Assembly (NCBI GenBank): GCA_947072905.1
Contig: CAMTKF010000016.1
Location: forward strand, 1-49,406
Source of the DNA: an uncultured Bacteroidales bacterium
GTDB lineage: Bacteria > Bacteroidota > Bacteroidia > Bacteroidales > Muribaculaceae
Length of the DNA: 49,406 bases
Direction: 5' to 3'
Position 1 is the stretch's first letter. Each line of letters begins with the position of its first letter. The notes under the pieces were generated by a model. That model did no database searches, was not told the DNA's origin, and was given only the letters and a program-made list of their open reading frames with translations. The translations under genes were made by a program, and so were the position numbers. Below, piece by piece: positions 40,753-45,506 of this stretch.

Positions 40753-41283
40753 TTAATCTGTCGGTGAGATTTCCAACTCCTTTGGGATAGTCTGAGAAGA
40801 GAGTACATAGTCGTTTTTTTCGCGTTCAAGTTGTTCTACACGTTCCTTGAGCCTTCCTATCTCCTCTGCTTGAGACCTTATAATATCATCTTTCTCCCTT
40901 ATTAATGCTAAAAACGGGTCATCCCCACTTAACGAACTAGTTTTCTGTGGCATTGAACTCTCGCTTGGGTAAATGCTTGTTAAATCATCATCATCTACCC
41001 AATATTTTGGCAGGTTTGGATTTTCTCTGAAAATATTGTTGCCTCTACTCATAAGTAGCCATTCCGCAGAAACTTTATAGAAGTCGCACATTATAGCGAG
41101 CATATCAGTTCCGGCTTTCATGCGTCCGTTCAGAATTTCTGAAAATTTTGCTTGTTTTACCCCAAGAGATTCAGCCAATGCAGACTTATTGGGGACTAAA
41201 TTGTGGCGTATAACGGCATTAACCGCCATAATAAAGCGGTTATTTATCTCATCCTTGGATAGTAATTTCTGAAATAGTTCCAT
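40753..41283 (-). CDS. XRE-type prophage repressor with C-terminal coiled coil
   Basis: Protein of 176 aa. An N-terminal helix-turn-helix (about 25-75: NKSALAESLGVKQAKFSEILNGRMKAGTDMLAIMCDFYKVSAEWLLM) is followed by a flexible Ser-rich part and a C-terminal coiled coil (about 130-160, REKDDIIRSQAEEIGRLKERVEQLE). No LexA-type protease domain is present, so induction by RecA cleavage is unlikely. Its place and direction are those of Mu repressor c. The longer frame from 41490 is rejected because the promoter at 41357-41387 lies inside it. Four TTTCTG-type operators flank its start. Confidence 0.8.
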   Translation of the reverse strand: MELFQKLLSKDEINNRFIMAVNAVIRHNLVPNKSALAESLGVKQAKFSEILNGRMKAGTDMLAIMCDFYKVSAEWLLMSRGNNIFRENPNLPKYWVDDDDLTSIYPSESSMPQKTSSLSGDDPFLALIREKDDIIRSQAEEIGRLKERVEQLEREKNDYVLSSQTIPKELEISPTD

Positions 41284-41325
41284 TTTTTCTGAAATTAATT
41301 TGGTTTTATTACAGAATTTCTGTAA
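41131..41325. promoter_or_regulatory. Cluster of TTTCTG operators
   Basis: CAGAATTTCTG occurs at 41131-41141 (inside the repressor gene) and 41312-41322 (overlapping the early -7 box); each is a perfect palindrome around one base. TTTCTGAAA occurs at 41267-41275 region (palindrome 41265-41275) and 41286-41294. Binding by the repressor would block the early promoter; this is inferred from position. Confidence 0.55.
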
Positions 41326-41330
41326 CTTTG
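41299..41330 (+). promoter_or_regulatory. Early promoter of the prophage
   Basis: TTTG (41299-41302), 20 bp, TAACTTTG (41323-41330): full consensus. Start expected near 41337. An operator palindrome covers its spacer and -7 box. Confidence 0.75.
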
Positions 41331-41356
41331 CAGCGGGTTCAGTTATGAACCGGTGC

Positions 41357-41387
41357 CAAAGATACGAAAAAGGCATGATTTTACAAA
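41357..41387 (-). promoter_or_regulatory. Repressor promoter
   Basis: On the minus strand TTTG (41387-41384), 19 bp, TATCTTTG (41364-41357): full consensus. Start expected near 41350, so it fires toward the early promoter and the two transcripts overlap by a few bases. Confidence 0.7.
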
Positions 41388-41398
41388 ATTTAAAGATT

Positions 41399-41770
41399 AT
41401 GAGAACTGTAAAAGAAATATGCGCTGCAATTGATGAGGCAAAGAAGAAGTTGATGAAAGCTTCCTCAACATCAGCCTTGACAAAGAGCATAGATGAACTG
41501 AGCCAACTTACATGGAGACTCAGCTTGCATGAGCAGGAACCAAGTGCGAAAGTTGATGTGTGTGTCTTCGCTACTGCACCAATGAGTGCAAGCGTAGATT
41601 CCGCAAAGAAACTCTCAGAACACTATCGACATAAGACTCATATAAAGGCTTGGGAAACCTTAGAGCCGAATGAAGTGGTCATATTCCCGGTGGATTACGC
41701 CGACCTTATAAAGGTTCTCGGAGACCTTGAGGAATGGGGATACGAGTACCGTGTAGAGAAAAAGGGTTAG
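41399..41770 (+). CDS. First early protein, unknown function
   Basis: Protein of 123 aa starting MRTVKEICAAIDEAKKKLMK: a helical N-terminal half (about 1-52) and a C-terminal alpha/beta part ending IKVLGDLEEWGYEYRVEKK. No family is recognised. The start at 41399 follows the early promoter by about 60 nt; earlier in-frame starts overlap that promoter. Its stop is at the very edge of the structured RNA segment, so the RNA is probably transcribed behind it. It occupies the position of Mu ner but has no evident helix-turn-helix. Confidence 0.65.
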   Translation: MRTVKEICAAIDEAKKKLMKASSTSALTKSIDELSQLTWRLSLHEQEPSAKVDVCVFATAPMSASVDSAKKLSEHYRHKTHIKAWETLEPNEVVIFPVDYADLIKVLGDLEEWGYEYRVEKKG

Positions 41771-42326
41771 ACCCAAGAGAGGGCGATCCTCCGGCGAGAG
41801 AGCCGGGAAAGCCGTAAGGCAAAAGATTAAGTCCACATCCCCCGGTAGAAGCTTCCGGGGGAACAAGGGAGCGAGACAGTAGGGAAATGCCGCCTACAGG
41901 GCGCACGGATGAATAAAGAGGAGACAGGCCCGTGTGTACTCGCCAACGGTTGGGGCTTCGCCGCCCCCGCTCCCGCAAAGATATGAGATGTGTGTGTGGA
42001 AAGTTGACAGCCGGGAAAGACCGGCATGGAGACGAGAGGGCCACGGTAATGCCTCGTGGCTGATAACATTCGAGACCGGGTTGCAGAGTCGCATCTGCCG
42101 TCTCCACAACGTGATTAAGAGAATGTTTGAATAATTTAGCTAATAGATTGGTAATGAAGATTGTTTATTGAGTTTCAAAACAAGGCCAACCCGAGAGGGC
42201 ACCTGCCGCAGAGGCGGCGAAAAGGACTTCATAGTAGAAATTGTTTTCAAACGGTCGTCCGCCAGTGATGTCAATGATAATACAGCGTTATTAGGGTTTA
42301 TAATCCATTAAAGGCGGGACGACAAA
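41771..42326 (+). ncRNA. Candidate large structured non-coding RNA
   Basis: About 555 nt without a credible protein gene but full of stable helices. Examples: GCC-GTAA-GGC (41811-41820), an 8-bp stem 41838-41845/41855-41862, long-range GGGAGC/GCTCCC (41867-41872/41969-41974), hairpin 42010-42014/42021-42025, an 8-bp closing helix 42027-42034/42099-42106 enclosing hairpins 42040-42060 and 42083-42098, CCC-GAGA-GGG (42190-42199), GCCGC/GCGGC (42205-42218), and a 10-bp helix 42254-42263/42313-42323 ending three bases before the tRNA-like element. Size, GNRA loops, phage location and adjacent tRNA recall the ROOL and GOLLD RNA classes, but I cannot assign it to either. There is no internal promoter; it should be made from the early promoter. 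Confidence 0.6.
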
Positions 42327-42401
42327 GCGGAGGTAGCTCAAGACGGTAGAGCGGTGTCGTGAGACACATGGGAGCGGGTTCGAGGCCCGCCCTTCGCACC
42401 A
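42327..42401 (+). tRNA. tRNA-like element lacking an anticodon loop
   Basis: 75 nt. Acceptor GCGGAGG pairs with CCTTCGC (one G-U at 4-69), discriminator A, encoded CCA. D-arm GCTC/GAGC with loop AAGACGGTA keeps A14, GG and A21, and position 8 is T. T-arm GCGGG/CCCGC has loop TTCGAGG. The anticodon arm is GTGTC/GACAC (42354-42358/42363-42367) closed by GTGA: four bases, a GNRA tetraloop, so no triplet can be presented. Opening pairs gives only 6- or 8-base loops. It should fold as an L-shape and be cut by RNase P, but not decode. A degenerate tRNA is the alternative. Confidence 0.7.
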
Positions 42402-42419
42402 AATATAAAAATAACAAAG

Positions 42420-42638
42420 ATGAAAGCAAAATCAGAACAGAGGACTGCGAAGGCAGTAAAACAGCTACAGAAGTATCTGGAGCGCAAAACACTGGACATA
42501 GGGTTAACGCTCAACGACTATGAGATGACCCACAATGACAGTGAGTGCACCGGCTCAAAGGAGTACAACGCACTGGTAGCCGGCTACTTTTCGCTGAGAG
42601 AGACAATCGAAAAAATGAACAGACAACTAAAAAAGTGA
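42420..42638 (+). CDS. Small early protein, helical
   Basis: Protein of 72 aa starting MKAKSEQRTAKAVKQLQKYL, basic and helical at both ends with an acidic middle (LNDYEMTHNDSECTGSKEYN). No family recognised. It starts 18 bp after the tRNA-like element, so RNase P and 3' processing there would free its message. Confidence 0.6.
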   Translation: MKAKSEQRTAKAVKQLQKYLERKTLDIGLTLNDYEMTHNDSECTGSKEYNALVAGYFSLRETIEKMNRQLKK

Positions 42639-42642
42639 GACT

Positions 42643-42801
42643 ATGAAGACAATGACAGTCAAGGCTCTGTTGGAGACAATATCCTATGAGACCTACATCA
42701 AATTAAGAAACAGAGGTAAAATCATTTTGGCCAAGTACGCGCCAAATGCAGAAGTTGATCTTGAACGTTCGTTTATTCCTCAGCTTCATAAACAGATCTG
42801 A
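42643..42801 (+). CDS. Very small early ORF
   Basis: 52 residues starting MKTMTVKALLETISYETYIK and ending LHKQI. It begins 4 bp after the previous stop and overlaps the end of the leftward gene by 29 bp. The tight spacing favours translation; nothing is known about the product. Confidence 0.45.
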   Translation: MKTMTVKALLETISYETYIKLRNRGKIILAKYAPNAEVDLERSFIPQLHKQI

Positions 42802-43505: not shown

Positions 43506-45506
43506 ATGGAATATTACGGTAACATACTTTGCATATCACGCAACGACCTCATTTCCGGCGGCATCATGACATCATCAAATTATGATGCTATGGTATCGAG
43601 GAAACGTATGACGGTAGTTCGTCCTGGAAAAGGCCGTGGTAATTATGCGCTGGTTGCCGTTGATAGCTTACCACAACGCTACAAAGATAAAGTTGATGAG
43701 GTTTATCCCGGGGGGGCGCGTGTGCGACTTGAGGGCTGGATCAAGAGCAACTATGAGGTAGACCAGGCAGCCGTCGCATTCTTTTCATCCCCAAAGAAGT
43801 GTGGGATAACACTTGAATATGATAAGATACGAACCTATATCATAAACGCATCGGTACTGAACACCTGCATAAAGCTGTATGAGAGAGCCTCGACCGCACA
43901 GAAGCTCTTTGGCGGCAAGTATGACTGGACCATGATGGCCTCAACGATAGAAACCCTGCGCAATCACTTCGGGCACACGCTACCGGCATCGCCCCTGAGA
44001 TTCCGCAAGAAGGTGAATGAATACAAGGCCAACGGTTACGCATGCCTGATTAGCGGAAAATTTGGTAATCAATGCGCCCGATTACTTACCAATAAAGAGC
44101 AATCTGTACTATTAGGAATAGCAGTATTAGAAAACAGACCATGGAACAAGAATGTACATGACATGTATGAAATGTTCATCTGCGGAGAGCTTGATGTATG
44201 GGATCCGGAAACAGGAGAATTAATGGATCCGGATCAGTATGCAAGAGAAAAGGATGGAGATTTATGGGTTCCCAGTGAATCAACAATAACAAACTTTCTA
44301 AACAAGCCAACAACCAAGCTTAAGATAGCAAAACTTCTAAAACCGCGCATGAATTTTTATCATGAGGATATGCCGCATGTACATCGACACAGCGGAAGCT
44401 ACTCATTGTCTCAGATAACGATGGATGACGTTGATTTGTCAAGACGAATGAAAAACAATGAAATAGTACATGCGTATTATGCTTATGACATGGTAAGTCA
44501 ATGTGTTCTTGGCGCATCATATTCAAGAAAAAAAGACAAAAATCTTGTGGATGAATGCTTCAGGGATTTATTCAGGCTCATCAAGAAGCGCCATTGGGGA
44601 ATTCCATTGGGAGTAGAGGTAGAGAACCATCTTATGACCGGGTATAGAGAAGGCTTCCTAAAAGAAGGTGCTGTTTTTACAAAGGTCAGATACTGCGCAC
44701 CTCAAAACTCTCAAGACAAATATGCAGAATCCCTAAATGGCGCAAAGAAAAGGAGTATAAATCATAAGAATCATTCCGGAATAGGCCGTTTTTATGGTAA
44801 AGGGAAGTGGAAGGTTTATTATGATAAAGCAAGCGATGAGACTAATCAGTTATGGATTGCAAAAAAATACTACACTTTTGAAGAGCTTGTGGCAGATGAT
44901 AAAGCGGACAACCATGAGTGGAATCACAGCCTGCATCCCAATCAGGACAAATATCCCGGCATGACAAGATGGGAGGTTTTAATAGCCAATATCAACCCCA
45001 ATCTGCGCCCCTATGACGAATCGTACTTAGCACGTTTTCTTGGAGAAGAAGTGTCTACAAGTATAAAGCGCAATTCGTATGTGAGGGTGTGTCACAGGGA
45101 TTGGTGGCTAAGTTCTCCGGAGATATTGGAAAAGCTGGAGACTAATAATTATAAAGTAACAGCATATTATATGCCTGATGATTCTACCGGAAGCCCTGAA
45201 AATGTATATATTTACCAAGGGGGGAGGTATATTGACACCCTTGAGCCAATAGAGACATTCAACAGAATTGTTACGGAACAGACGGAAGAAGATCAAGACA
45301 AATTTCATCGTCAAATAAAAAAGATAAATGAGTTCAAGAAGTATGTTGAGAACACCAAAGTAACAAGACTTAGTGTAATGAAGCGCGACAGAGCCGCAGA
45401 AACGGTAGAAGCCGAAGAAGTACCCATGCCGGTAGAAGAGCCGCGAGAAACGCAAGATATGGGCTTCGCTGACGACTACGCCGCACGAGCCTTGGCAGAC
45501 CTTTAG
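43506..45506 (+). CDS. MuA-like DDE transposase
   Basis: Protein of 666 aa with the Mu transposase layout: an N-terminal DNA-binding part (about 1-170), a linker, an RNase H-like core (about 300-415), a beta-barrel domain (about 470-590) and a charged tail that could contact the ATPase. The core begins SLSQITMDDVDLS (first catalytic Asp at 307 or 308), continues with YAYDMVSQCVLG, and ends with KYAESLNGAKKR holding the catalytic Glu 408. The second acidic position lies in GVEVENHL (371-374), where most DDE enzymes have Asp-Asn; here it is Glu. A ribosome-binding site (AGGAAG) precedes the ATG. Confidence 0.88.
   Translation: MEYYGNILCISRNDLISGGIMTSSNYDAMVSRKRMTVVRPGKGRGNYALVAVDSLPQRYKDKVDEVYPGGARVRLEGWIKSNYEVDQAAVAFFSSPKKCGITLEYDKIRTYIINASVLNTCIKLYERASTAQKLFGGKYDWTMMASTIETLRNHFGHTLPASPLRFRKKVNEYKANGYACLISGKFGNQCARLLTNKEQSVLLGIAVLENRPWNKNVHDMYEMFICGELDVWDPETGELMDPDQYAREKDGDLWVPSESTITNFLNKPTTKLKIAKLLKPRMNFYHEDMPHVHRHSGSYSLSQITMDDVDLSRRMKNNEIVHAYYAYDMVSQCVLGASYSRKKDKNLVDECFRDLFRLIKKRHWGIPLGVEVENHLMTGYREGFLKEGAVFTKVRYCAPQNSQDKYAESLNGAKKRSINHKNHSGIGRFYGKGKWKVYYDKASDETNQLWIAKKYYTFEELVADDKADNHEWNHSLHPNQDKYPGMTRWEVLIANINPNLRPYDESYLARFLGEEVSTSIKRNSYVRVCHRDWWLSSPEILEKLETNNYKVTAYYMPDDSTGSPENVYIYQGGRYIDTLEPIETFNRIVTEQTEEDQDKFHRQIKKINEFKKYVENTKVTRLSVMKRDRAAETVEAEEVPMPVEEPRETQDMGFADDYAARALADL

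Follow-up and report, generated by a model that had tools for sequence, protein, structure and literature searches.

Within the window, the whole 49,406-nucleotide stretch of Bacteroidales DNA that we analyzed, the locus belongs to a Mu-like prophage and lies in its early operon. A divergent repressor-like gene (40753-41490) is found in the early region of the prophage, and a structured stretch of about 41763-42401 lies between two small early ORFs, followed in the same operon by a Mu-like transposase gene; a MuB-like protein of this operon matches phrog_296. These genes bear out the early-operon location given in a preliminary description of the DNA. Three units in a row make up the structured stretch, and each has a terminal tRNA-like structure (TLS): two TLS of a new family (41867-41976 and 42028-42107), represented by a covariance model, R1, built from six B sequences, and one at 42327-42401. 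The features are as follows.

41300..41770, + strand: upstream small early ORF (longest frame), with an internal ATG start; its stop codon lies within the first helix of head A.
41763..41820, + strand: head A, three helices (AGGGUU/GAUCCU enclosing CCC/GGG; CCGGC/GCCGG; GCC/GGC).
41838..41862, + strand: hairpin before TLS-B, ending 4 nt 5' of it.
41867..41976, + strand: TLS-B, with a 7-bp acceptor, a hairpin at the D-arm position with a GAAAUGCCG loop, a variable arm, a T-arm-like hairpin and the tail GC; a member of the R1 set, with covariation.
42010..42025, + strand: hairpin with a GAAAGA loop, 2 nt before TLS-C; a like hairpin precedes the TLS of loci L081 and L082.
42028..42107, + strand: TLS-C, of the TLS-B family (model R1, E 1.3e-6), outside the R1 training set.
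42183..42225, + strand: head D, a shorter head variant (AGG/CCU, CCC-GAGA-GGG, GCCGC/GCGGC), with relatives with changed stems in L013, L033 and L057.
42254..42323, + strand: long hairpin, helix 42254-42263 with 42313-42323, ending 3 nt before the third TLS.
42327..42401, + strand: third tRNA-like element, with acceptor, D-arm, T-arm and encoded CCA; a GUGA tetraloop replaces the anticodon loop.
42420..42638, + strand: small early ORF, starting 22 nt downstream of the third TLS's acceptor stem; the same gene follows many related TLS.
43506..45506, + strand: Mu-like transposase gene (phrog_310, E 6.6e-39).

Searches of Pfam and PHROG gave no match to the ORF at 41300..41770, and the transposase as a single query matched one viral and three genome loci. 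From the named relatives of the transposase alone, the host probably belongs to the Muribaculaceae. The palindrome ACAGAATTTCTGT occurs at 41311-41330, adjoining TAACTTTG, which we take to resemble a Bacteroidetes -7 box and, with the palindrome, to form a possible operator and early promoter.

The ORF list, judged by eye, holds no credible ORF from 41770, where the upstream ORF ends, to the next ORF start at 42420, and a coding reading was rejected, the internal ORFs being short and overlapping the structures (by eye). For 41765-42405 the fold energy is -226 kcal/mol, whereas 20 dinucleotide shuffles average -203.6 (sd 8.2), which gives z -2.7. Fold energy by itself is evidence of modest weight, and the comparative evidence is stronger: folded alone, TLS-B reaches z -0.7, with 39 of 200 shuffles equally stable, and single sequences of the B/C family fold only moderately better than shuffles. 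Together with the covariation described below, these results uphold the claim of a non-coding structured RNA between two small early genes. Its extent was in part misjudged, as the structure takes in the upstream stop codon, its start being near 41763, and as the tRNA-like element, previously taken as a neighbor, belongs to the system.

At gathering scores over the whole window, Rfam gave no match, to ROOL, GOLLD or any other class, and its fast filters overlooked even the tRNA; at E <= 10 on 41300-42700 it returned the tRNA above cut-off and four matches below theirs. This sole match above cut-off (RF00005, 42327-42398, 41 bits with a cut-off of 29), together with an ARAGORN report, agrees with the earlier observation of a tRNA-like element after the last helix, and that helix (42254-42263 with 42313-42323) does end three bases before it. 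In tmRNA, an acceptor and T-arm close a larger domain, a likeness to the present elements; tmRNA was rejected, with G3-U70 in 2 of 46 elements, 7.8 bits for the model versus 47, and no tag ORF identified. GOLLD and ROOL, too, are large and structured, occur in phages and prophages and lie close to tRNA shapes, with tRNAs sometimes in the GOLLD linker (PMC12286853, in excerpt), and that likeness of setting stands, whereas the present RNA has no match to them in Rfam and is a modular chain of small units. The idea of one ROOL- or GOLLD-like molecule of about 555 nt is not supported: the modules occur apart in homologues, which usually have the first module, one hairpin and one TLS, and a single giant RNA was rejected on that ground. 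At the DNA level, 14 of 196 related genomes matched (own genome included), and when phage and plasmid records were searched with the RNA, the matches listed were pieces of just 22-28 nt.

The head A element is present in 23 viral contigs. Of the 32 copies listed, a count that includes the window and any duplicates, 31 are followed, as judged by eye, by a tRNA-like element; the exception, L009, is broken. Most copies have the order head, one hairpin, TLS and the small ORF known from 42420; the chain of L033 (head A, hairpin, TLS, head D, hairpin, type-B TLS, small ORF, transposase) resembles that of the window. A head descriptor, whose strict loop rule leaves out the window's own heads, gave 14 matches, or 13 credible distinct variants after removal of L082, which looks like chance, and none in 217,516 shuffled bases. 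The outer stem of these variants is AGG/CCU in nine and CGG/CCG, GGC/GCC or GGG/CCC in the others. Pair counts for 13 copies of head A show most pairs to be invariant, while two change on both sides, one as CG/GC/UA.

Model R1 finds TLS-C of the window, which lies outside its training sequences, at E = 1.3e-6, and within the host family it matches 14 of 297 genomes, own genome counted. In an order-wide sample of 393 it matches only two, its own genome and another from that family, so the B/C fold seems confined to the family. The exact TLS-C pattern was absent from the viral contigs searched, and the one weak R1 match in nine relative loci (L085, 21.5 bits) falls within a coding gene and was taken as chance. 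Among 23 members, 99.5% of cells are paired in an alignment fitted to R1 and hence leaning to structure (slid controls pair 36-62% of cells). Double-changed cells number 110, against 33.0 (sd 5.9) in shuffles, a count reached in 0 of 500; none of the 500 reaches the covariation score either, one reaches the number of pairs changed on both sides (12 of 17) and 41 reach the number of pair types. By these figures the new TLS family covaries strongly. Since the homologues covary and Rfam is without a match apart from the tRNA, the structured RNA has withstood both outcomes, a known Rfam class and a lack of covariation, that the preliminary description had named as counting against it. The structures of the elements are well supported, while their function is an inference.

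To describe elements of the classical kind, we used a descriptor consisting of a 12-bp acceptor/T-stem stack around a UUCRANN loop, with neither D-arm nor anticodon required. It gave 29 matches in 18 sources, at least three of them long and seemingly due to chance; three shuffles in 200-nt mononucleotide blocks averaged 0.0. The larger set comprises 45 distinct matches of up to 125 nt in phage loci, at least one doubtful (L025, minus strand); the strict descriptor misses L004 and unusual TLS seen by eye in L077, L080, L081 and L082. In a Porphyromonas Mu-like phage, the relaxed descriptor gave one match, below the shuffle mean of 1.6.

The element at 42327-42401 has the cloverleaf core of RF00005 (acceptor, D-arm and T-arm), ranks 39th by score of the 40 tRNA matches of its own genome and is reported by ARAGORN as 'tRNA-???'; its anticodon arm is GUGUC-GUGA-GACAC, with a tetraloop instead of a 7-nt loop on a 5-bp stem. 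Of 45 elements, 5 could form a canonical anticodon arm and 40 could not, compared with 19 of 19 host tRNAs that have one under the same test, and among the five the tRNA-Phe of L069 alone is convincing by eye. The laxer ARAGORN names an isotype for 9 of the 20 elements it reports in related loci and gives '???' for 11; in L004 the isotype is Phe and the anticodon loop plausible. The element L069:6179-6251 has a convincing tRNA-Phe anticodon loop (UUGAAAA), lies 22 nt before an ORF and may show the origin of such elements. Three identical ordinary tRNA genes stand in tandem at L116:1206-1528, in a genome of another family.

While the middle parts of the elements are very variable, the acceptor and T-arms are constant: the 12-bp acceptor/T-stem stack is kept, as are the D-loop/T-loop elbow in classical elements and the discriminator followed by C74. 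A D-arm occurs at the tRNA position in 26 of 46 elements (L117 added), all 26 with GG in the loop, and C74, the C after the discriminator, in 44 of 46 classical elements, in 21 of 21 B/C elements, where it forms part of the model, and in 18 of 18 host tRNA genes with a readable tail. Such features are those that tRNA end-processing enzymes recognize. With C74, stack and elbow kept and the anticodon mostly gone, the elements have therefore retained the parts used by end-processing enzymes and mostly lost the part that the ribosome reads. It is very improbable that they are remnants, that is, decayed tRNA genes or attachment sites acquired from hosts: their D- and T-arms do look tRNA-derived, and a halovirus tRNA-like gene is attP (PMC8707807, in excerpt), but pairing, D-loop GG and C74 are kept despite letter changes, which together with the covariation contradicts decay. 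Moreover, an 801-bp query matches its own genome once, at itself, and Mu-like phages insert by transposition.

Elements of this kind were also found in other phages. In Bacteroides hankyphage p00 (L085, OY725592.1), a tRNA-Arg is annotated at 1767-1850, the corresponding place in the early operon, where no feature is given in the older record BK010646. The anticodon arm of this annotated tRNA reads CUCC-UAUAAU-GGAG, 27 nt separate it from the following ATG, and the anticodon test finds one candidate, mismatched and in another register. The 'tRNA-Arg' looks like an anticodon-less tRNA mimic and not a working tRNA. A hankyphage 82.7% identical over the stretch has CUCCC-GCAA-GGGAG at the anticodon arm and a changed enclosing helix, and by this comparison the fold is kept with changed letters. 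In a separate order-wide sample the hankyphage element matched 1 of 295, and there only the T-arm of ordinary tRNAs. Relatives of the transposase in faecal phages are accompanied by smaller elements with acceptor and T-arm (by eye), and carriers include non-Mu phages, with genes for a RecE-like exonuclease, a RecT-like protein, a DnaC-like loader, a DNA polymerase and a helicase in the loci. We found no report of such elements in the open-licence literature searched, and the word 'tRNA' is absent from the main text, as available, of PMC12135933 and PMC6199706.

Rfam, which presumably holds a C4 family, matches tRNA only at this locus, and the elements are found upstream of unrelated genes, as well as in further phage types. 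A prophage immunity or antisense RNA, like the phage antisense C4 RNA processed by RNase P (mentioned in PMC11143913, in excerpt), is thus scarcely to be expected, even though the early-operon place adjoins a repressor gene.

The placement of the elements relative to genes was examined in the set of 45. A first-ATG ORF start lies 0-35 nt downstream of 24 elements (23 at 13-30 nt), compared with 9.7% of random positions, and 21 elements have no ORF start in range. Counting elements of both kinds, 42 of 67 are followed within 45 nt by the start of an ORF of 40 aa or more, and these ORFs form 21 clusters; one shared downstream ORF accounts for 17 of the 42, and because the cases are related in this way, the statistics, which rest on related loci and home-made descriptors, are inflated. 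Among the 17 single downstream ORFs there may be some that are not genes. Within the window, no ORF starts in range of TLS-C, and TLS-B is followed by a 48-aa frame that traverses TLS-C and is not credible; these two elements are without a gene directly behind them. On the upstream side, the 50 nt before a TLS have a median fold energy of -16.4 kcal/mol, versus -9.6 for random stretches, and 31 of 45 elements have their last upstream pair at a distance of 1-6 nt, with spacers in the window of 4, 2 and 3 nt before TLS-B, TLS-C and the third TLS. The position before start codons would also suit an uncut leader, in which the TLS remains in the mRNA as a protein-binding site or a translation control of the next gene; we regard this as improbable, since the conserved C74 and the hairpins immediately upstream fit cutting better and the downstream genes are unrelated (21 clusters).

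Judging from sequence and structure, we think it slightly more likely than not that the TLS are RNase P and tRNase Z signals for cutting the early mRNA, arranged here as a three-unit cassette of a kind reused in Bacteroidales phages. Host RNase P would cut at the 5' end of each TLS, and tRNase Z or exonucleases at its 3' end, splitting the polycistronic early transcript; a protective hairpin would then remain at the 3' end of the upstream message, and the following gene would begin with a short open leader. RNase P cleavage, already proposed for the last unit, is plausible, although RNase P may not read the B/C elements because their T-arm loops differ from classical ones. Where no gene separates successive TLS, as is the case in the window, the units may also survive excision as small stable RNAs; such gene-less chains and the constant B/C loops suggest an additional role as RNAs for some units.

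The alternatives rank, in falling order, as decoy, uncut leader, immunity RNA and remnant. As trans-acting decoys, excised tRNA-like RNAs would build up early and occupy host factors that read the elbow or acceptor end, such as defence proteins that attack tRNA, the changing middle reflecting an arms race. We consider this unlikely. The anticodon is the target of many tRNases, and its absence, the trains of TLS without genes and the highly variable middle parts around constant acceptor and T-arms would all suit decoys, but decoys of anticodon nucleases should retain the anticodon, and a recurrent position directly before start codons would not be needed.

Cutting at TLS would have its nearest parallel in the t-elements of plant mitochondria, tRNA-like elements that are cut by RNase P and tRNase Z. 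Similarly to these, elements of the window type are tRNA-shaped, lie between transcript parts and have no decoding role, whereas they belong to bacterial phages and show chains, heads, upstream hairpins and a new TLS fold, the cutting here being predicted. The use of t-elements extends to Haloferax constructs (PMC4946936, in excerpt). Phages such as T4 encode tRNAs with precursors processed by RNase P (PMC11143913, in excerpt), and the present elements are likewise phage-encoded, tRNA-shaped and probably RNase P substrates, but mostly lack a canonical anticodon arm and stand singly or chained before protein genes.

More tentatively, and short of an even chance in our estimate, the elements may form a general punctuation system of gut Bacteroidales phages, in which fast-changing, anticodon-stripped tRNA mimics, equipped with a conserved head and with a TLS fold that is new (GAAAYGCCG loop), would let host tRNA maturation enzymes split early transcripts and set free a group of small RNAs that have their own functions during phage take-over. 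If so, phages of abundant gut bacteria would process messages with the cell's tRNA-cutting enzymes, a practice better known from organelles. Annotations such as the hankyphage 'tRNA-Arg' would be corrected, two RNA motifs unmatched by Rfam (the B/C fold and the head) would be added, and a rule for locating transcript borders in these phages would be gained.

Some further observations concern hairpins and chains in other loci. A recurring hairpin, CCGG..GUCYGUGARGAUAG..CCGG, precedes several TLS (L068:10690-10740, L071:6080-6117 and L075:4920-4965). At L048:6860-6900 (minus strand), a solitary GAAAGA-loop hairpin stands with no TLS before a gene similar to one that follows a TLS elsewhere. The non-Mu phage region L043:4641-8190 holds several TLS of both kinds, including four consecutive ones before a gene, with GUGA hairpins between them.
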